This document shows positions 38,193 to 44,774 of a stretch of DNA of 44,774 bases, one piece after another (position 1 is the stretch's first letter; each line of letters opens with the position of its first letter). Source of the DNA: Bacillus sp. FJAT-27245 (lineage in GTDB: Bacteria > Bacillota > Bacilli > Bacillales > Cytobacillaceae). The stretch lies in NCBI RefSeq assembly GCF_001273955.1, contig NZ_LIGI01000001.1, positions 3,677,062-3,721,835 of the forward strand, in the 5' to 3' direction. The position numbers and the translations under genes are program-made. The notes under the pieces are model-generated. The model had not been told where the DNA came from. It ran no database searches and saw only the letters and a program-made list of their open reading frames with translations.

Positions 38193-38229
38193 AAAAAAGG
38201 CATTATTCCTGTGTGGATAATGCCTTTTT
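38193..38229. terminator. Bidirectional terminator between the epimerase gene and appC
   Basis: AAGGCATTATTCC pairs with GGATAATGCCTT around a short loop, with A residues on the left and T residues on the right; it can terminate both converging transcripts. Confidence 0.88.
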
Positions 38230-38275: not shown

Positions 38276-39202
38276 TCATTCTGTTATCTTCGGATCAAAA
38301 GCATCACGGAGCCCGTCTCCAACAAAGTTGAACGCCAATACGGTAATTAAAATCATGATTCCCGGGAATAGGGTAAACCACCATGCTTCAACCATGATTT
38401 TCAAGCTTTGGGCGCTTTGAAGCATATTCCCCCAGCTCGGCCTTGGTGGTTGGATTCCCAGGCCAAGATAACTAAGGGCGGTTTCGGCTAATATAACCCC
38501 GCCAATCCCTAAGGTTGCAGAAACGACGATTGGGCCCATCGCATTGGGAAGGATATGCGAAAATATTATACGCGAGCTTTTGATACCCATTGTTTTCGCA
38601 GCGAGGACAAACTCACGTGACCGGAGAGTTAAAAACTCTCCCCTGACAAGCCTCGCAGTCCCGGTCCAGCCGAACAAAGCAAACACGAGTATTAATGTCA
38701 TCAGGCTTGGCTCAAAAATGGTGACGAGGGTAATCAATAAAAATATCGATGGGAAAGAAATAATGACATCTACAAATCGCATTAAAACGGCATCGATTTT
38801 CCCGCCGAAATAGCCTGCGATTGCCCCAACGACCGTTCCAATAAAAATTGAACCAGCGACAGAAGTAAATCCGACAAGCAGCGATACCTGTGCGCCATAT
38901 AGCAAACGGCTTAACGTGTCACGCCCTAAATCATCGGTTCCCAAAAGGTATTTTCCGCCAGGAGGGCTTAACGTTTCCAACAAATTTTGATCACTTGGAT
39001 GATATGGTGCGATCCATGGCGCAAAAATAGCGGCGTTAATGATGATGAACAGGATGACCGCGCTCACAACCGCCAGTTTATTTTTCATGTATTTCCGCAG
39101 CATAATTCTTCCGAGCGTCTCAGGTTTTTTCGTTCCTTTAGGGTTGTTATGAAGGGGTTTATAAGGTAAGTTTTCAAGCGCTTTTTGTTCTGGAAGCCCC
39201 AT
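38276..39202 (-). CDS. appC: Oligopeptide ABC transporter permease AppC
   Basis: A 308-aa inner-membrane permease of the OppC/DppC type. The N-terminal cytoplasmic segment (about 40 residues) precedes a first helix ([21 protein letters not shown]), then the [25 protein letters not shown] motif, and the EAA loop [23 protein letters not shown] that contacts the ATPases. A final SWGNMLQ and [16 protein letters not shown] are standard. Last gene of the app operon; pairs with AppB to form the pore. Confidence high for the family; the peptide-length preference is inferred. Confidence 0.95.
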
Positions 39203-39219: not shown

Positions 39220-40170
39220 TTAATACTCAATTCTCGGGTCAAAAATCGCATAGAGAATGTCAGCAAGCAGATTGCCAATGACGACCAAAGCTGAGGCTAT
39301 TACGGTAATTGCCATGATCACGGGGTAGTCCCTTTGGAAGGCCGCATCAAAAAATAGTAATCCAATCCCTGGCCATCCGAAAATCTTCTCAACAACCACC
39401 GAACCTCCAATAAACGACGGCAGCATTAGCCCAAAAATTGTAATGACAGGGATTAAACCGTTACGGAGCCCATGCTTGTAAACGACCTTCCGTTGGTTGA
39501 AGCCCTTTGCCCTGGCAGTCCGGATAAAATCCTGCCTTAACACTTCGAGCATACTCGAACGGATATACCTCGTTAATCCCGCTACATCAGCTGTTGCCAG
39601 TACGATGGCTGGCAATATTAAATGGTGGATCCGGTCCCAAATACTAAAAGGCTCATTCAAGGTCGCCACCCCGCCAGTTGGGAACCAGCCTAAATGGACA
39701 GACAGGAACATGATGAGAACTAGTCCAATCCAAAAGTTAGGTGTCGCAATCCCTAAAAACGAGAAGAAAGTCACTGTGTAATCTGTTAGAGAATTTGGTT
39801 TAGTGGCCGACAGGATTCCAATTGGGATGGAAATGAGAATGGCCAATATAGTAGAAACGAGCATTAAGAGCAATGTATTTGGCAATCGGGCCATGATCAA
39901 TTCATTTACGGCAACCCCCTGGCGAATCAATGAATCACCGAAGTTCCCTTGGAGCATGTTCCCTACCCATTTGAAATATTGGACATGGATAGGGTCATTC
40001 AGGCCATATAATTCTTTGTAGGCCTCCAGATCCTTTGACCGTATCATTGGATCGATCATTAATGCAGTCGGATCACCCGGAGCAATTTGAATGATTGCAA
40101 ACGATAATATCGTAATTCCAAACAGCAACGGTATCGCCATCAAGGTCCGCCGGACAATATATGTAATCAT
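39220..40170 (-). CDS. appB: Oligopeptide ABC transporter permease AppB
   Basis: A 316-aa permease of the OppB/DppB type with six helices. Landmarks: [23 protein letters not shown] at the N-terminus, [10 protein letters not shown], the EAA loop [23 protein letters not shown], and IEYF-type end (AIFDPRIEY). It lies 17 nt before appC and 129 nt after appA, on one transcript. ATG with GGAAGAGGAG. Same operon logic as in Bacillus subtilis, where app transports oligopeptides. Confident. Confidence 0.95.
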
Positions 40171-40299: not shown

Positions 40300-41955
40300 T
40301 TATTGCTCCATCCACCACTTATGAATTTCAAAGTAGCCGTTGGCTGGGGAAAATTTCGGCCCATGCAATTTAGGTGTATGTGCCAGATTGCCGCTCGGAT
40401 AGTACAGGAACGTATACGGCTGATCCTCCGCCACAATCGCATCCGCCTTTTGAATAAGCTCTTTTCGTTCCTCCTGGTCAACGATGCTCGTATTGATTTC
40501 GAGCAGCTTGTCAACTTCAGGATTGGAATAACCAAACCAGTTCAGCCCGGCTTTAATTTCGCTAGTATGCCAGAACCATGTTGGATCGGGGTCGCTTCCG
40601 ATTGACCAGCCTGATACAACTGCGTCAAAATTCCACTTTGGAGGGCCGATTTCTTCGTAAAACGCACTCCACTCTAGCACCTCGATTTTCACCTTTACAC
40701 CAATTTCCTTCCATTGCTGCTGGGCAATTTCGGCAATTTTTGTCCAAGACCCGTAGCCATTGGTCGTTTTAAGGGTGAATTCAAATTTCTTTCCATCTTT
40801 CTCGTAAACCTTGTCTTTCCCTAATTTCCAGCCAGCTTCCTCTAACAGCTTCTTGGCTTTTTCAGGGTCATAGTCATATTTGGGCATATTGGGGTTAAAC
40901 GCCCAGTTAGCCGGGCTTCCTGGTCCATGAGCAATTGTTGAATCCCCGCCGTGCACAGCATCAATGATTTTTTGCTTCGCGATTGCGTGTGTTAAGGCAT
41001 GCCTGACCTTTTTATCCTGGAATAATGGATTCCGCAGGTTATAGCCGATAAAATCCCATGAGTTGCTCGGTCCTGAAACGAGTTTAATAATTCCCTTATC
41101 CTCCAGCGATTTTGCTGTTGAAAGCTGTTCAGCGGTGATTCCCGTATAATTTATATCGCCCGCCTGCAGCTGTGCCATCAAGGCATTGACGTCAGGGACA
41201 ATTTTAAAAACGAATGAATCGAGATATGGCCTTCCATCATAGTAGTCTTCAAACGCGTCCAGCTTAATATATTGGCCGTCCTTCCATTCCGAAAACTTGA
41301 ACGGGCCAGTCCCAATCGGCTTTTTTGTATTGAATTCGTGTGTCGCCAATTCTTTCATCGGAACATTCCCTAAAATATGCTCCGGCAAAATTTCAAATTG
41401 GGCGGTGATTGTAATGAATGGCGCATATGGCTCGGACAATGTAATAGTCACCGTATAATCATCAACTTTTTTGATTTCAGTGACGGTTTCAAACGGCAAT
41501 GCCCTTGGTCCTGTATAGTCTTTGTGAAGCGGAATATTATAGGTGAAAACGACGTCATCCGCTGTGAAGTCTTCACCGTCATGCCACTTGACCCCTTTTC
41601 TTAAATAAAACGTGTACGTTTTGTCGTCATCTGAAACGTCCCATTTTTCCGCGAGATTCCCAACCGGGCTAAATTCCCTATCAATGGTAACCAGGCCGCT
41701 GAAAAGCATTGCTTCAATCGTTCCATCCGGGCCGCCTGTTGAAAAGTATGGATTGAATAAGGTCGGAGAAGCTGTATGGCCAAGAATGAGGCTGCCGCCT
41801 TTTTGAGGCTCCGTTGATGCCTTTGCCTCGTTTTTATTTTTGTTTTTTCCGGAATTGTTATCACTTCCATAATCGGATGTTGTAGTCGAACAGGCTGCCA
41901 GGAAAAGCGAAAATCCTAAAATCATTGTTAAAAACAAAATGAATGACCTTTTCAA
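40300..41955 (-). CDS. appA: Oligopeptide-binding lipoprotein AppA
   Basis: A 551-aa extracytoplasmic solute-binding lipoprotein (SBP family 5). From TTG 41955 (GGAGGGG upstream) the signal is MKRSFILFLTMILGFSLFLAAC with lipobox LAA-C (Cys22). A Ser/Asn/Lys-rich linker (about 25 residues) follows. The DppA/OppA landmarks are KWDVSDDDKTYTFYLRKGVKWHDGEDFTADDVVFTY and the IGTGPFKFSEW motif. It delivers peptides to AppBC. The longer frame to 41997 has no ribosome site. Gene order as in the B. subtilis app operon. Confidence 0.95.
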   Translation of the reverse strand: MKRSFILFLTMILGFSLFLAACSTTTSDYGSDNNSGKNKNKNEAKASTEPQKGGSLILGHTASPTLFNPYFSTGGPDGTIEAMLFSGLVTIDREFSPVGNLAEKWDVSDDDKTYTFYLRKGVKWHDGEDFTADDVVFTYNIPLHKDYTGPRALPFETVTEIKKVDDYTVTITLSEPYAPFITITAQFEILPEHILGNVPMKELATHEFNTKKPIGTGPFKFSEWKDGQYIKLDAFEDYYDGRPYLDSFVFKIVPDVNALMAQLQAGDINYTGITAEQLSTAKSLEDKGIIKLVSGPSNSWDFIGYNLRNPLFQDKKVRHALTHAIAKQKIIDAVHGGDSTIAHGPGSPANWAFNPNMPKYDYDPEKAKKLLEEAGWKLGKDKVYEKDGKKFEFTLKTTNGYGSWTKIAEIAQQQWKEIGVKVKIEVLEWSAFYEEIGPPKWNFDAVVSGWSIGSDPDPTWFWHTSEIKAGLNWFGYSNPEVDKLLEINTSIVDQEERKELIQKADAIVAEDQPYTFLYYPSGNLAHTPKLHGPKFSPANGYFEIHKWWMEQ

Positions 41956-42021
41956 AAGTACCCCTCCAAATTTTGTAATGAATATCCTAGCTTTCAATCT
42001 TTGTCGTTATTAAAACCTTGC

Positions 42022-43050
42022 CTAATCATAAAGATGGCAGGCAACAAAGTGGTTTGGCCCAACTTCTTTAAAAGCCGGTATGGTTTTACTGCAAATATCC
42101 ATTTTCACAGGGCATCGCGTATGGAATACACATCCGGCCGGCGGATTCGATGGACTCGGCAGGTCACCGCTAAGTACGATTCTTTCCCTCTTGGACAGCC
42201 CTCTTTTTTTTATGGCCGGCACGGCTGATAGCAATGCCTGCGTGTAAGGATGGAGCGGCTCTGCATAAATATCCTCTTTATCCGCAAGCTCCACCATGTT
42301 CCCGAGGTACATCACCCCTACCCGGTCTGAAATATGCCTGACGACACTTAAGTCATGGGAGATGAAAATGTAAGTCAGATTAAAATCCTTTTGCAGATCT
42401 TCCAACAGGTTCACAATTTGCGCCTGTATAGATACATCAAGCGCCGATACAGCTTCATCCGCGATAATAAGCTCAGGCTCCAAGGCCAAAGCCCTGGCAA
42501 TCCCGATCCTTTGCCGCTGCCCTCCCGAAAATTCATGTGGGTACCGGTTTACAAATGAACGATTAAGGCCTACTATTTCTAGCAGTTCTTCCACTCTCTC
42601 AAGCCGTTCCCTCTCGTTTGCAAAAAGCTGATGTGTTTTCAGTGGTTCGTATAGTGTACTTCTCAATGTCTTCCTTGGATTAAGGGAAGCAAAGGGATCT
42701 TGGAAAATCATTTGGATTTTCTTCCTCATGACCTTCCGCAACTCGCTTTCCGGCAGATGGGAAATATCCAGTCCATTGAACAGGATTTGGCCATCTGTTG
42801 GTTCATAAAGGCGGATCAGCGTCCGGCCCATCGTCGATTTCCCGCAACCCGATTCCCCGACAATCCCCAACGTTTCGCCTTTTTTCACCTTGAACGTAAG
42901 TCCATCAACCGCTTTTACGTAACCGGTTGTTTTTTGTAAAATACCTGTTTTAATCGGAAAATATTTTTTTAGATTCGAAACTTCAAGAATCATTTCTTCA
43001 GTCTTTGCCTCCGGAGCTTTTGGCCGTTCCAACTCTGTATAAGACTGCAT
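42022..43050 (-). CDS. appF: Oligopeptide ABC transporter ATPase AppF
   Basis: A 342-aa ATPase. Walker A is GESGCGKST, the ABC signature FSGGQRQRIGIARAL, Walker B LIIADEAVSALD, and the C-terminal oligopeptide-dimer domain carries GCVFHTRCPVKMDIC, a Cys pattern common in Opp/DppF. ATG 43050 overlaps the appD stop (TAATG), so translation is coupled; the ribosome site is the GAGGAGGCGG before it. Drives peptide import with AppD. Confidence 0.96.
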   Translation of the reverse strand: MQSYTELERPKAPEAKTEEMILEVSNLKKYFPIKTGILQKTTGYVKAVDGLTFKVKKGETLGIVGESGCGKSTMGRTLIRLYEPTDGQILFNGLDISHLPESELRKVMRKKIQMIFQDPFASLNPRKTLRSTLYEPLKTHQLFANERERLERVEELLEIVGLNRSFVNRYPHEFSGGQRQRIGIARALALEPELIIADEAVSALDVSIQAQIVNLLEDLQKDFNLTYIFISHDLSVVRHISDRVGVMYLGNMVELADKEDIYAEPLHPYTQALLSAVPAIKKRGLSKRERIVLSGDLPSPSNPPAGCVFHTRCPVKMDICSKTIPAFKEVGPNHFVACHLYD

Positions 43051-44027
43051 TATTCCGCCTCCTCTTCGTATAAAAAGCATCGGACGGAACGGGAGGAAGC
43101 CAGTTGCTTTAAAGCTGGCTGTTCATAGAAACAACGCTCCATCGCTTTCGGGCAGCGCGGGGAAAAACGGCATCCCATTGGCATCTCATCCGGCGATGGA
43201 ACATTTCCCGGAATTGAATTAAGCCTCGTTATTTCCCCATCGATGAGTGGAACGGATTCAATCAGCCCACTCGTATAGGGATGCAAGGGCCGGTCAAAAA
43301 TGTCATCGATCGCCGCTTCTTCAACGACCTGGCCTGCATACATAACGATGACCCTGTCGGCGAGCTCCGATACGACTCCTAAATCATGAGTGACCAATAG
43401 AATGGAAGTCTCAAATTTCTCGCTTAAATCCTTCATAAGCTCCAATACTTGCGCCTGGATTGTCACATCGAGGGCGGTCGTTGGTTCATCTGCGATTAAG
43501 AGCTTCGGATTGCAGCTCATTGCCATCGCGATCATAACCCTTTGCCTCATTCCTCCTGATAAACGATGGGGATATTCATTCAGCATTTTTTCCGCCCCTG
43601 AAAAGCCGACCATTTTTAATAGATGGATGGCCTTCTCGGCGGCCTCGCTTCGGCTGATTTTCAGGTGATACATGATCACTTCGATAATTTGTTCGCCAAT
43701 GGTTAATACGGGATTAAGCGAGGTCATTGGCTCTTGAAAAATCATAGCGATATCCCGCCCGCGAATTTTGCACATGCTGCTTTCCGATAACCCGACCAAA
43801 TCGACTCCATCAAGAAAAATTTTCCCGTCGACAATTTTGCCGCCCGGTGCCGGTACCAATCCTATAATCGAAAGGGAGGTAATACTTTTGCCGCAGCCTG
43901 ATTCTCCTACAAGCGCAACCGTTTCCCCTTTCCGTATCTTCAAATCGACTCCATCGACAGCAGGAATGGTTTGCCTTTTACTCACAAAATGGGTTTTAAG
44001 ATTTTTCACTTCCAATAATGCAGACAT
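43050..44027 (-). CDS. appD: Oligopeptide ABC transporter ATPase AppD
   Basis: A 325-aa ATPase and the first gene of the operon. Walker A is GESGCGKSITSLS, the signature LSGGMRQRVMIAMAM, Walker B LLIADEPTTALD, H-loop VTHDLGVV; the C-terminal domain has GCRFSPRCPKAMERC. The start at ATG 44027 has AAGGTGG 11 bases upstream; the GTG at 44042 lies within that site. About 106 nt of leader separate it from a full-consensus sigma-54 promoter. Gene order appDFABC equals that of B. subtilis. Confidence 0.96.
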   Translation of the reverse strand: MSALLEVKNLKTHFVSKRQTIPAVDGVDLKIRKGETVALVGESGCGKSITSLSIIGLVPAPGGKIVDGKIFLDGVDLVGLSESSMCKIRGRDIAMIFQEPMTSLNPVLTIGEQIIEVIMYHLKISRSEAAEKAIHLLKMVGFSGAEKMLNEYPHRLSGGMRQRVMIAMAMSCNPKLLIADEPTTALDVTIQAQVLELMKDLSEKFETSILLVTHDLGVVSELADRVIVMYAGQVVEEAAIDDIFDRPLHPYTSGLIESVPLIDGEITRLNSIPGNVPSPDEMPMGCRFSPRCPKAMERCFYEQPALKQLASSRSVRCFLYEEEAE

Positions 44028-44143
44028 ATCTCGCGTAACCACCTTACAATCATATAGTTGTATACACGCGGCCTAATTTTCCCAAAAGGCACAACTCGTT
44101 TTTCTCACTCAACACCTCTCTTGTCGTTTACTAATCTACTATT

Positions 44144-44163
44144 TGCAAGAACCGTGCCAACCT
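44144..44163 (-). promoter_or_regulatory. appD: Sigma-54 (SigL) promoter of the app operon
   Basis: On the minus strand AAGGT-TGGCACG-N4-TTGCA-AAT: every position of the mrNrYTGGCACG-N4-TTGCWNNw consensus fits, with GG (-24) at 44158/57 and GC (-12) at 44146/45. Transcription should begin near 44133. No SigA-type box is seen at an equal quality. The match is seen; use by SigL is inferred. Confidence 0.85.
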
Positions 44164-44246
44164 TTCGCACGCCGGGCATTTCATGGAAAATAAAGTATCT
44201 CCTCCATCCTTTGGGGCTATATTGAACATATCTGTTAAATTTTTTA

Positions 44247-44261
44247 TACACTTATAGTGTA
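44247..44261. promoter_or_regulatory. Palindrome between the divergent sigma-54 promoters
   Basis: TACACT-TAT-AGTGTA, perfect 6-bp arms. It lies about 90-130 bp upstream of both promoters, where a bacterial enhancer-binding protein would bind. The repeated ATCTGTTAA (44230 and 44294) stands on either side. Use as an enhancer is inferred. Confidence 0.45.
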
Positions 44262-44389
44262 AATGTATAAATATTTTGAATAGTCAGCCTTTAATCTGTT
44301 AATATGGTAAAAACCGACTCTATTAAATATGTAGCTACCCCTTCCTACATTGGAAAATGAAAGCTTTTCAGAACACACCGGCAAATGAT

Positions 44390-44405
44390 TGGCATAATAC
44401 TTGCA
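44390..44405 (+). promoter_or_regulatory. Sigma-54-like promoter of the prolyl oligopeptidase gene
   Basis: TGGCATA-N4-TTGCA: correct spacing and the invariant GG and GC, with C-to-T and G-to-A changes in the -24 block. GG at 44391/92, GC at 44403/04; the start would be near 44415, about 30 nt before the ATG. Confidence 0.7.
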
Positions 44406-44444: not shown

Positions 44445-44774
44445 ATGGAAATTGTTAAACTGGAAGCTGAAGACAATTATCATGGAACGATTGTAAAAGA
44501 CCCTTTTCGCTGGCTTGAGGATTCCAGCCTTCCCGAAACTAAGGAATGGGAAGAAAGGCAGAAATTGAACACGGAGAGTTTTCTTGGTTCAATTCCAGGA
44601 AGGGAAGAAATTAAATCACGCTTGAGGGAGCGGTGGAATTACGCCAAATATTTTGTCCCAAAAAAGCATGGGGAGTATTACTATTACTTAAAAAATGACG
44701 GGTCCAAAAATCAGCCCGACCTTTATCGATCCAAGGCAGTAACAGGCAGCTTCGATACTGAAGAAATCATTCTC
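44445..44774 (+). CDS. Prolyl oligopeptidase (S9A), 5' part cut by the window edge
   Basis: The first 110 codons of a peptidase S9 prolyl oligopeptidase. The N-terminus (KLEAEDNYHGTIVKDPFRWLED) is the family entry motif (D-x-Y-H-G-x-x-V-x-D-P-F/Y-R-W-L-E-D), followed by the helical hairpin and propeller start; the Ser-Asp-His active site would lie beyond the window. No signal peptide, so cytoplasmic: it cleaves after Pro in short peptides. ATG with AGGAGG nine bases upstream. Divergent from the app importer and similarly preceded by a sigma-54 promoter, implying a shared peptide-use function. Confidence 0.93.
   Translation, partial: MEIVKLEAEDNYHGTIVKDPFRWLEDSSLPETKEWEERQKLNTESFLGSIPGREEIKSRLRERWNYAKYFVPKKHGEYYYYLKNDGSKNQPDLYRSKAVTGSFDTEEIIL

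Follow-up and report, generated by a model that had tools for sequence, protein, structure and literature searches.

In Bacillus sp. FJAT-27245, an activator of the SoxR type and the sigma factor SigL probably run the uptake, cleavage and degradation of hydroxyproline- or proline-containing peptides by way of a cluster of five promoters. We estimate the probability of this reading, which was derived from sequence, at roughly 0.8. Two of the five predicted promoters are located near the right end of the window, that is, the whole stretch of 44,774 nucleotides analyzed here, between the operon of an oligopeptide importer and the gene of a prolyl oligopeptidase (POP). The other three lie past the right edge. 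The original prediction, made from the window itself, had proposed a circuit of SigL and an enhancer-binding protein that turns on the import and intracellular cleavage of Pro-containing peptides. A sigL gene, an activator gene, conservation of the promoter elements across genera and a candidate enhancer were all found, which argues for a circuit of this kind. The proposal can be sharpened on two points: the imported peptides more likely contain hydroxyproline, and the importer-peptidase pair appears as one arm of the five-promoter cluster. Peptide import and proline-specific cleavage would here be joined to a breakdown of the hydroxyproline type under sigma-54-type control.

The -24/-12 element assigned to the app operon is located at positions 44144 to 44159 on the minus strand (TGGCACGGTTCTTGCA). 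Read from 44159 to 44144, it is TGGCACG-GTTC-TTGCA, which shows no mismatch to TGGCAC-N5-TTGCW and is the only perfect match in the window. The element assigned to the POP gene, at 44390 to 44405 on the plus strand (TGGCATAATACTTGCA), reads TGGCATA-ATAC-TTGCA and has one mismatch to the same pattern. In both, the GG at -24 and the GC at -12, which do not vary in such promoters, are present and separated by 10 bp, and both fit TGGCAY-N5-TTGCA. On rechecking the letters, the two elements were present as originally described, the minus-strand one perfect and the plus-strand one with a single substitution. The distances to the genes are also sensible, as had been claimed. The first T of the POP element lies 55 bp from the POP ATG, and the app element lies 117 bp from the GTG of appD at 44042. 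An alternative ATG start of appD is possible at 44027, and four relatives have shorter distances of 51-85 bp. The genome has a gene for the cognate sigma factor (rpoN/sigL; PF04552, one match, E 3e-60). On the basis of the strict matches and their conservation, we regard the two elements as probably genuine sigma-54 promoters that would depend on SigL, a judgment made jointly with that on the whole cluster.

The gene calls on both sides, i.e. the POP start at 44445 and the minus-strand operon appD-appF-appA-appB-appC, were confirmed. The first gene of the importer operon encodes an appD-like ATPase (43050-44042, minus strand), called as an open reading frame, for which the OppD/DppD families of NCBIfam scored under their cut-offs. 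It is followed on the same strand by genes for an appF-like ATPase (42022-43080; NCBIfam PRK11308, 430 bits, above the cut-off of 408), an appA-like peptide-binding lipoprotein of the SBP_bac_5 family (40300-41997; Pfam PF00496, 369.7 bits) with a lipobox-like LAAC seen by eye near its N-terminus, an appB-like permease (39220-40170; best model NCBIfam Opp4B, 323.7 bits, under the cut-off of 450) and an appC-like permease (38276-39202; NCBIfam Opp4C, 384.6 bits, above the cut-off of 350). Among the Opp4 models, Opp4C thus passes its cut-off, and Opp4A and Opp4B fall under theirs. The run of one binding protein, two permeases and two ATPases in a single series of genes is that of an App/Opp importer. 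A terminator-like stem-loop with a 15-pair stem and a T tail (38194-38229), near-palindromic and listed on the plus strand, is located at the 3' end of the operon. The POP gene begins at 44445 on the plus strand, leaves the window at 44774 and continues to G000:C1:3723548 on the contig. Its product of 680 residues belongs to family S9A and combines an S9_N propeller (PF02897) with an S9 catalytic domain (PF00326). The closest solved structure is a prolyl endopeptidase (3iuj, 593 bits); an identity as oligopeptidase B was rejected on scores (175 bits). Inspection by eye of the POP sequence showed no signal peptide. The protein is probably a cytoplasmic prolyl oligopeptidase, predicted to cut after Pro.

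Since short promoter patterns are readily matched by chance, we compared the matches with controls. In the window, 23 matches with up to two mismatches were found where 19.7 are expected, which is no excess, and in the genome the pattern with up to one mismatch matched 150 times, against 94 for the reversed-pattern control. Loose matching, being at or not far above the chance level, was excluded from the evidence. The strict pattern TGGYAY-N5-TTGCA behaved differently, with 25 matches in the 4.6-Mb genome against 2 for the reversed control, and 0.0007 matches expected per 400 bp. Six of the 25 strict matches fall within 12.6 kb beginning at the app promoter (P ~5e-6 after correction, for a cluster that was chosen after it had been seen), and five of these six are in promoter position. 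The sixth (G000:C1:3729348-3729363) runs antisense inside the activator gene; it is absent in all eight relatives compared and was dropped as a probable chance match. Single strict matches can therefore arise by chance. We examined the setting of all 25 sites, and several have the start of a long frame at promoter distance and no surrounding long frame. In the cluster these are the sites of POP, of the flavoprotein operon and of the Fe-S operon; elsewhere they number four, two by the activator gene of L003 and one each by L004 and L001. A further site of this kind precedes a trpE-like gene with no activator gene nearby. The starts of appD and of the M24 gene, 117 and 72 bp below their elements, were placed separately from the automatic start search.

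The elements are conserved among relatives. A search for POP in 193 genomes of the family gave matches at E <=1e-150 in 11. Among the seven copies of at least 64% identity, this genome's own included, six have a strict element 52-57 bp upstream. The exception is a copy in G073 (L095), which is broken by in-frame stops and has no element. The same genome has a second POP (~50% identity) followed by another importer operon, with a sigma-54 element 483 bp upstream. The appD orthologs of at least 67% identity have the element in all five cases seen, 51-117 bp upstream, and M24b genes of at least 78% identity have it in 7/7, 53-91 bp upstream. The element of the flavoprotein operon is present in 20/20 loci and that of the Fe-S operon in 18/20 (missing in G060 and G259). 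The original prediction was to be abandoned if close relatives had lost the GG/GC dinucleotides. Such a loss was looked for in the family, and the elements were kept (POP 6/7, appD 5/5).

Distant copies, on the other hand, differ. The background set, i.e. the best 80 POP loci from a contig scan (42-51% identity, G146 included), contained no element within 400 bp in any of the 80. Five POPs of 46-51% identity in the family or order (G146, G094, G196, G195 and G044) have none within 300 bp; judging from gene order, that of G146 may be transcribed along with the flavoprotein operon instead. The element is likewise absent from less similar copies of the other genes, namely appD of 55% identity in G101 and M24a of 58% in G541. 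Seven other members of the genus have neither POP nor activator at the cut-offs used.

Past the right edge, the POP gene (positions 3721506-3723548 of contig C1, plus strand) is followed on the minus strand, at 3723622-3727694, by genes for a DapA-family protein, a Cys-less protein of the proline-racemase family, a two-Cys protein of the same family and a DAO-family flavoprotein. The activator gene (G000:C1:3727870-3729528) is divergent from this flavoprotein operon. An activator gene had been expected just beyond the right edge; it is indeed present, at a distance of 6.4 kb from the POP start and not in the immediate vicinity. On the 3' side of the activator gene, up to 3731442, there are genes for a BFD-like Fe-S protein, a Fer2_4 protein and an FAD protein with a weak match to SoxA (89 bits, cut-off 1164). 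Two M24 peptidase genes follow on the minus strand (3731507-3733730); their products carry Creatinase_N domains and have Xaa-Pro dipeptidase and aminopeptidase as best models, both under the cut-off. Three further strict sigma-54 elements are placed as promoters would be, one each ahead of the flavoprotein operon, the Fe-S operon and the M24 pair. The activator gene is flanked by two predicted sigma-54 promoters, those of operons that are soxB-like and soxC-like.

The activator has PAS, AAA+, lid and HTH_8 domains. All 19 copies of its family show the Walker A sequence GESGVGK or GESGAGK and the loop GAFSGA, with Ser in place of Thr. The replacement of GAFTGA by GAFSGA was noted in this protein (L011:15871-17529) together with its 18 orthologs, and also in another activator of the genome, L004. 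The best NCBIfam model is PrdR, at 547 bits and under its cut-off of 795. Activator orthologs (67-74% identity) were found in 9 of the 12 genomes asked. These include all eight of the others asked whose POP is at least 49% identical; the activator there is 68-74% identical. In G195, G196 and G044, the POPs of which are 46-47% identical, neither an activator at 1e-100 nor a POP promoter was found. The POP and activator genes are ~5-23 kb apart on one contig in seven of the eight genomes; in G094 they are on two contigs.

In the order, the activator was found at 1e-185 in 12 of 397 genomes. The other activator stretches that were fetched contain no POP, the core standing there alone or beside a different importer. 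Activator and core are often seen there without POP and an importer of the app type, for example in G024, G095, G354 and G562. Since the core occurs without POP in these genomes, the peptide arm is an addition present in some lineages. Several arrangements in relatives are worth noting. In G072, G104, G073 and G071 (L211:17212, L212:19151, L214:16325 and L210:920), an extra sigma-54 element is directed away from the M24 promoter; the gene downstream of it encodes an oligopeptide-binding-protein-like product ~23% identical to appA. In L240 (G541, another family), M24 genes and a different importer of the peptide type come after the core, and one sigma-54 element stands 146 bp before the appB-like gene of this importer. 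Peptide modules may have joined this activator core more than once. Behind the more distant activators (46-48% identity) of L067 (G058) and L069 (G024) there is a sigma-54 element with an M24-family gene (33-39% identity); M24 enzymes are thus repeatedly found beside this kind of activator.

An activator of this kind would bind an enhancer. Between the app and POP promoters there is a 29-bp inverted repeat at 44243-44271 (TTTATACA-N13-TGTATAAA), ~120-160 bp upstream of each predicted start. A scan of 34 loci for the relaxed inverted-repeat pattern found it upstream of POP, in six genomes, and at no other place. The exact repeat occurs at two places in this genome, and with one mismatch allowed it is matched 11 times in the genome, the reversed control 5 times, which is a weak excess. 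Its half-site TTTWTACA was picked by eye before counting, so the following counts were not blind. In six app/POP regions it occurs 14 times (1.4 expected), in 6/6 regions; in 18 flavoprotein/activator regions 31 times (2.3 expected), in 18/18; and in seven M24 regions 6 times (0.7 expected), in 5/7. This genome lacks a TTTWTACA half-site upstream of its M24 genes. Three regions were left out of the count, those of the G101 POP, with neither the repeat nor a half-site, of G095, with one half-site, and of G094. A plain count of 7-mers in the flavoprotein/activator set ranked TGTATAA and TGTAAAA first, each in 16/18 regions. The arrangement of the half-sites at app/POP differs from that in the flavoprotein/activator region, where the inverted-repeat form is absent. 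We consider the repeat at 44243-44271 a likely candidate enhancer of the app and POP promoters.

The substrate was considered on the basis of the two-Cys protein of the proline-racemase family. It has both catalytic Cys residues, in MCGH and DRSPCG motifs. Among the sites reported to separate proline racemase from hydroxyproline epimerase, site 1 of the epimerase is a residue other than Phe and site 4 is His; at site 5, reported epimerases have Cys or Tyr and racemases Phe (PMC4364671). The present protein has Ser63 at site 1, where the four best solved relatives have Phe in three cases and Tyr in one, and His224 at site 4, where none of the four has His. Val244 at site 5 is the residue of neither group, the four solved relatives having Phe or Trp. 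The three letters are the same in 15/15 orthologs. Sites 1 and 4 favor an epimerase and site 5 is neutral. The protein misses both NCBIfam cut-offs, however, with 393.9 bits for proline racemase (cut-off 556) and 360.8 bits for 4-hydroxyproline 2-epimerase (cut-off 376), and the name 4-hydroxyproline 2-epimerase is therefore a prediction. The Cys-less paralog (L011:12533-13486, minus strand) adjoins this active-type epimerase. Both Cys residues are missing in 7/7 aligned copies, which are 46-59% identical to that of this genome, compared with 79-85% for the epimerase in the same genomes; the paralog was not seen in G323 and G265. It is perhaps a partner subunit.

The DapA-family protein of the same operon matches PF00701 and passes the cut-off of the DapA equivalog TIGR00674 (232.2 bits, cut-off 206.15). 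NCBIfam would thus name it DapA proper, and comparison with solved structures did not settle its substrate. Among solved structures, glycine and sarcosine oxidases come nearest to the flavoprotein. In the cluster itself, no semialdehyde dehydrogenase turned up. Bacillus cereus, according to the available text of PMC4113996, grows on trans-4-hydroxy-L-proline (t4Hyp) and induces genes for predicted 4HypE, D-Hyp oxidase, deaminase and semialdehyde dehydrogenase. Taken together, the epimerase residues, this precedent, the prolyl oligopeptidase, the M24 peptidases and the peptide importer suggest that peptides containing hydroxyproline or proline are the likely substrate, with hydroxyproline likelier than Pro peptides in general.

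The observed genes, promoter elements with their conservation, shared half-sites and epimerase residues lead us to infer a scheme of SigL dependence, activator binding, inducer, peptides and enzyme activities as follows. One PAS-domain enhancer-binding protein, the SoxR-type product of G000:C1:3727870-3729528, would drive all five promoters. It would sense an inducer, perhaps hydroxyproline or a breakdown product, and bind the TTTWTACA repeats in the app/POP and flavoprotein/activator intergenic regions. The SigL promoters opened in this way would supply the App-type oligopeptide importer (1) and the cytoplasmic prolyl oligopeptidase (2). Promoter (3) would supply a D-hydroxyproline-dehydrogenase-like flavoprotein, the 4-hydroxyproline 2-epimerase, its Cys-less paralog and a DapA-family deaminase, promoter (4) two small Fe-S proteins and the FAD protein of the same dehydrogenase, and promoter (5) the two M24 peptidases of the Xaa-Pro type. 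Peptides rich in Pro and hydroxyproline, from collagen, gelatin or plant hydroxyproline-rich proteins, could then be imported, cut after Pro and trimmed to free Pro and hydroxyproline, and the latter would be epimerised, oxidised and deaminated towards 2-oxoglutarate.

There are other possible interpretations of these results. The SigL promoters may be real and app and POP nevertheless answer another enhancer-binding protein, the SoxR-type activator serving only the flavoprotein/epimerase and Fe-S operons, like SoxR in B. thuringiensis. The genome does have further candidates, with 10 matches to the activator domain, four of them at E <=1.7e-69 (one being the SoxR-type gene itself) and one at 1.9e-35; the enhancer geometry at app/POP is unlike that at flavoprotein/activator, and the core occurs without app/POP in other genomes. 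The half-site is nevertheless enriched in both regions, and the activator accompanies POP in 8/8 of the other genomes asked in which POP identity reaches 49%, in 7/8 of them within ~5-23 kb, while it is missing from the three genomes with promoterless POPs of 46-47%. We consider separate activators unlikely. Still less probable, and in our judgment very much so, is that both elements are chance matches and that SigA promoters of the usual kind serve app and POP. A sigma-70 scan gave 11 matches where 12.8 are expected, which is the chance level; on the minus strand, 44302-44273 and 44160-44133 match weakly (9 of 12), within this background. The strict sigma-54 match inside the activator gene, conserved in 0/8 relatives, does show that such matches can be accidental, but accident hardly accounts for the conservation across genera at a fixed distance, the clustering of strict matches and the 0/80 among distant POP loci.

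The pathway could also be one for sarcosine or creatine, with the flavoprotein acting as a sarcosine oxidase and the M24 proteins on creatine-like compounds. Mutants of B. thuringiensis HD73 in soxB or soxR cannot use sarcosine as their only source of nitrogen (PMC4941409), and both the solved relatives of the flavoprotein and the weak SoxA match of the FAD protein are in keeping with this assignment. It leaves, however, a racemase-family enzyme, a DapA-family protein, POP and an oligopeptide importer without an obvious place, and the functions of soxI, soxH, soxG, soxF and soxE were left open by the B. thuringiensis authors in the text available (PMC4941409). The M24 proteins score best against Xaa-Pro peptidase and aminopeptidase models, under the cut-offs, sites 1 and 4 of the epimerase are occupied by Ser and His, and the corresponding enzyme types of B. 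cereus are induced on t4Hyp (PMC4113996). We regard sarcosine or creatine as an improbable substrate of the cluster and prefer hydroxyproline- or proline-containing peptides. A wider proposal, to which we lean with some reserve, is that a single sigma-54 activator of these Bacillales commands an entire "collagen-peptide" program of import, POP, Xaa-Pro peptidases and hydroxyproline degradation and senses a hydroxyproline-derived signal; the "sarcosine" locus of B. thuringiensis would then be its free-hydroxyproline core, named for a side activity. The cluster gives reason to reconsider that locus with hydroxyproline, and it points to a route by which some bacilli may draw on collagen or on hydroxyproline-rich protein of plants. 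The five promoters and the candidate enhancer are amenable to simple reporter work.

Several known systems share part of this design. The bacterial L-hydroxyproline pathway (4HypE, D-Hyp oxidase, Pyr4H2C deaminase and KGSADH; PMC4113996) likewise has an epimerase, a DAO-family flavoprotein and a DHDPS-family deaminase encoded together; unlike the present cluster, its description there, in the text available, includes neither sigma-54 control nor peptide uptake. The predicted "peptide degradation" regulons of Clostridiales (XcyR malY-pepT and YpdR pepABC; PMC6615313) also place peptidase genes under sigma-54 activators. The peptidases are others, and the terms oligopeptide and hydroxyproline are absent from the main text of that paper. 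A 2025 survey of the sigma-54 targets of Bacilli (PMC12316311) has proline racemase and proline dehydrogenase among the enriched genes, its main text containing none of the terms oligopeptide, prolyl, peptidase and hydroxyproline. The PrdR/proline reductase regulon of clostridia resembles the present one in that PrdR is the best model of the activator and concerns proline catabolism; it differs in that the score is under the PrdR cut-off of 795 and that no proline reductase genes were seen in this cluster. SigL targets named for Bacillus concern levanase/cellobiose, arginine, proline, acetoin, branched-chain compounds, GABA, lysine and "sarcosine" (PMC4941409, PMC4428206). The main text of the SigL regulon paper lists sigma-54 promoters of proline metabolism (HD73_1024-1025 and HD73_4161) and lacks the terms oligopeptide, prolyl and peptidase (PMC4428206). 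Among the literature matches listed, no paper describes sigma-54 control of an oligopeptide importer and a prolyl oligopeptidase together.

The closest likeness is to the sox locus of B. thuringiensis HD73, a link that rests on layout and domain content. There, soxB and soxC have -12/-24 promoters with mapped starts that depend on SigL and SoxR, and the footprint of the one SoxR site contains TTTTTACA (PMC4941409). The word hydroxyproline is absent from the available text of that paper. Both loci have a PAS-type activator gene between two sigma-54 promoters, and genes for a flavoprotein, proline-racemase-family and DapA-family proteins, two small Fe-S-type proteins and a second flavoprotein. 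Promoters of the TTGGCAYG type are likewise shared in kind, and the A/T-rich activator site holding TTTTTACA may have its counterpart here. An exact search of 397 genomes of the order for the published soxB promoter gave no match, and the string of the published SoxR site (an 11-bp inverted repeat with a 7-bp spacer) is absent from the loci scanned; the half-site contained in it is enriched. The activator loop is GAFSGA here, whereas GAFTGA is stated for all eight B. thuringiensis activators (PMC4428206). HD73 alone has an aldehyde dehydrogenase and an amino-acid carrier in its locus, and the present cluster adds the oligopeptide importer, the prolyl oligopeptidase and two M24 peptidases to the sox layout, with a sigma-54 element for each unit. 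Judged by gene content, the core resembles the known sox locus, and the peptide arm with its own predicted sigma-54 elements is the added part.
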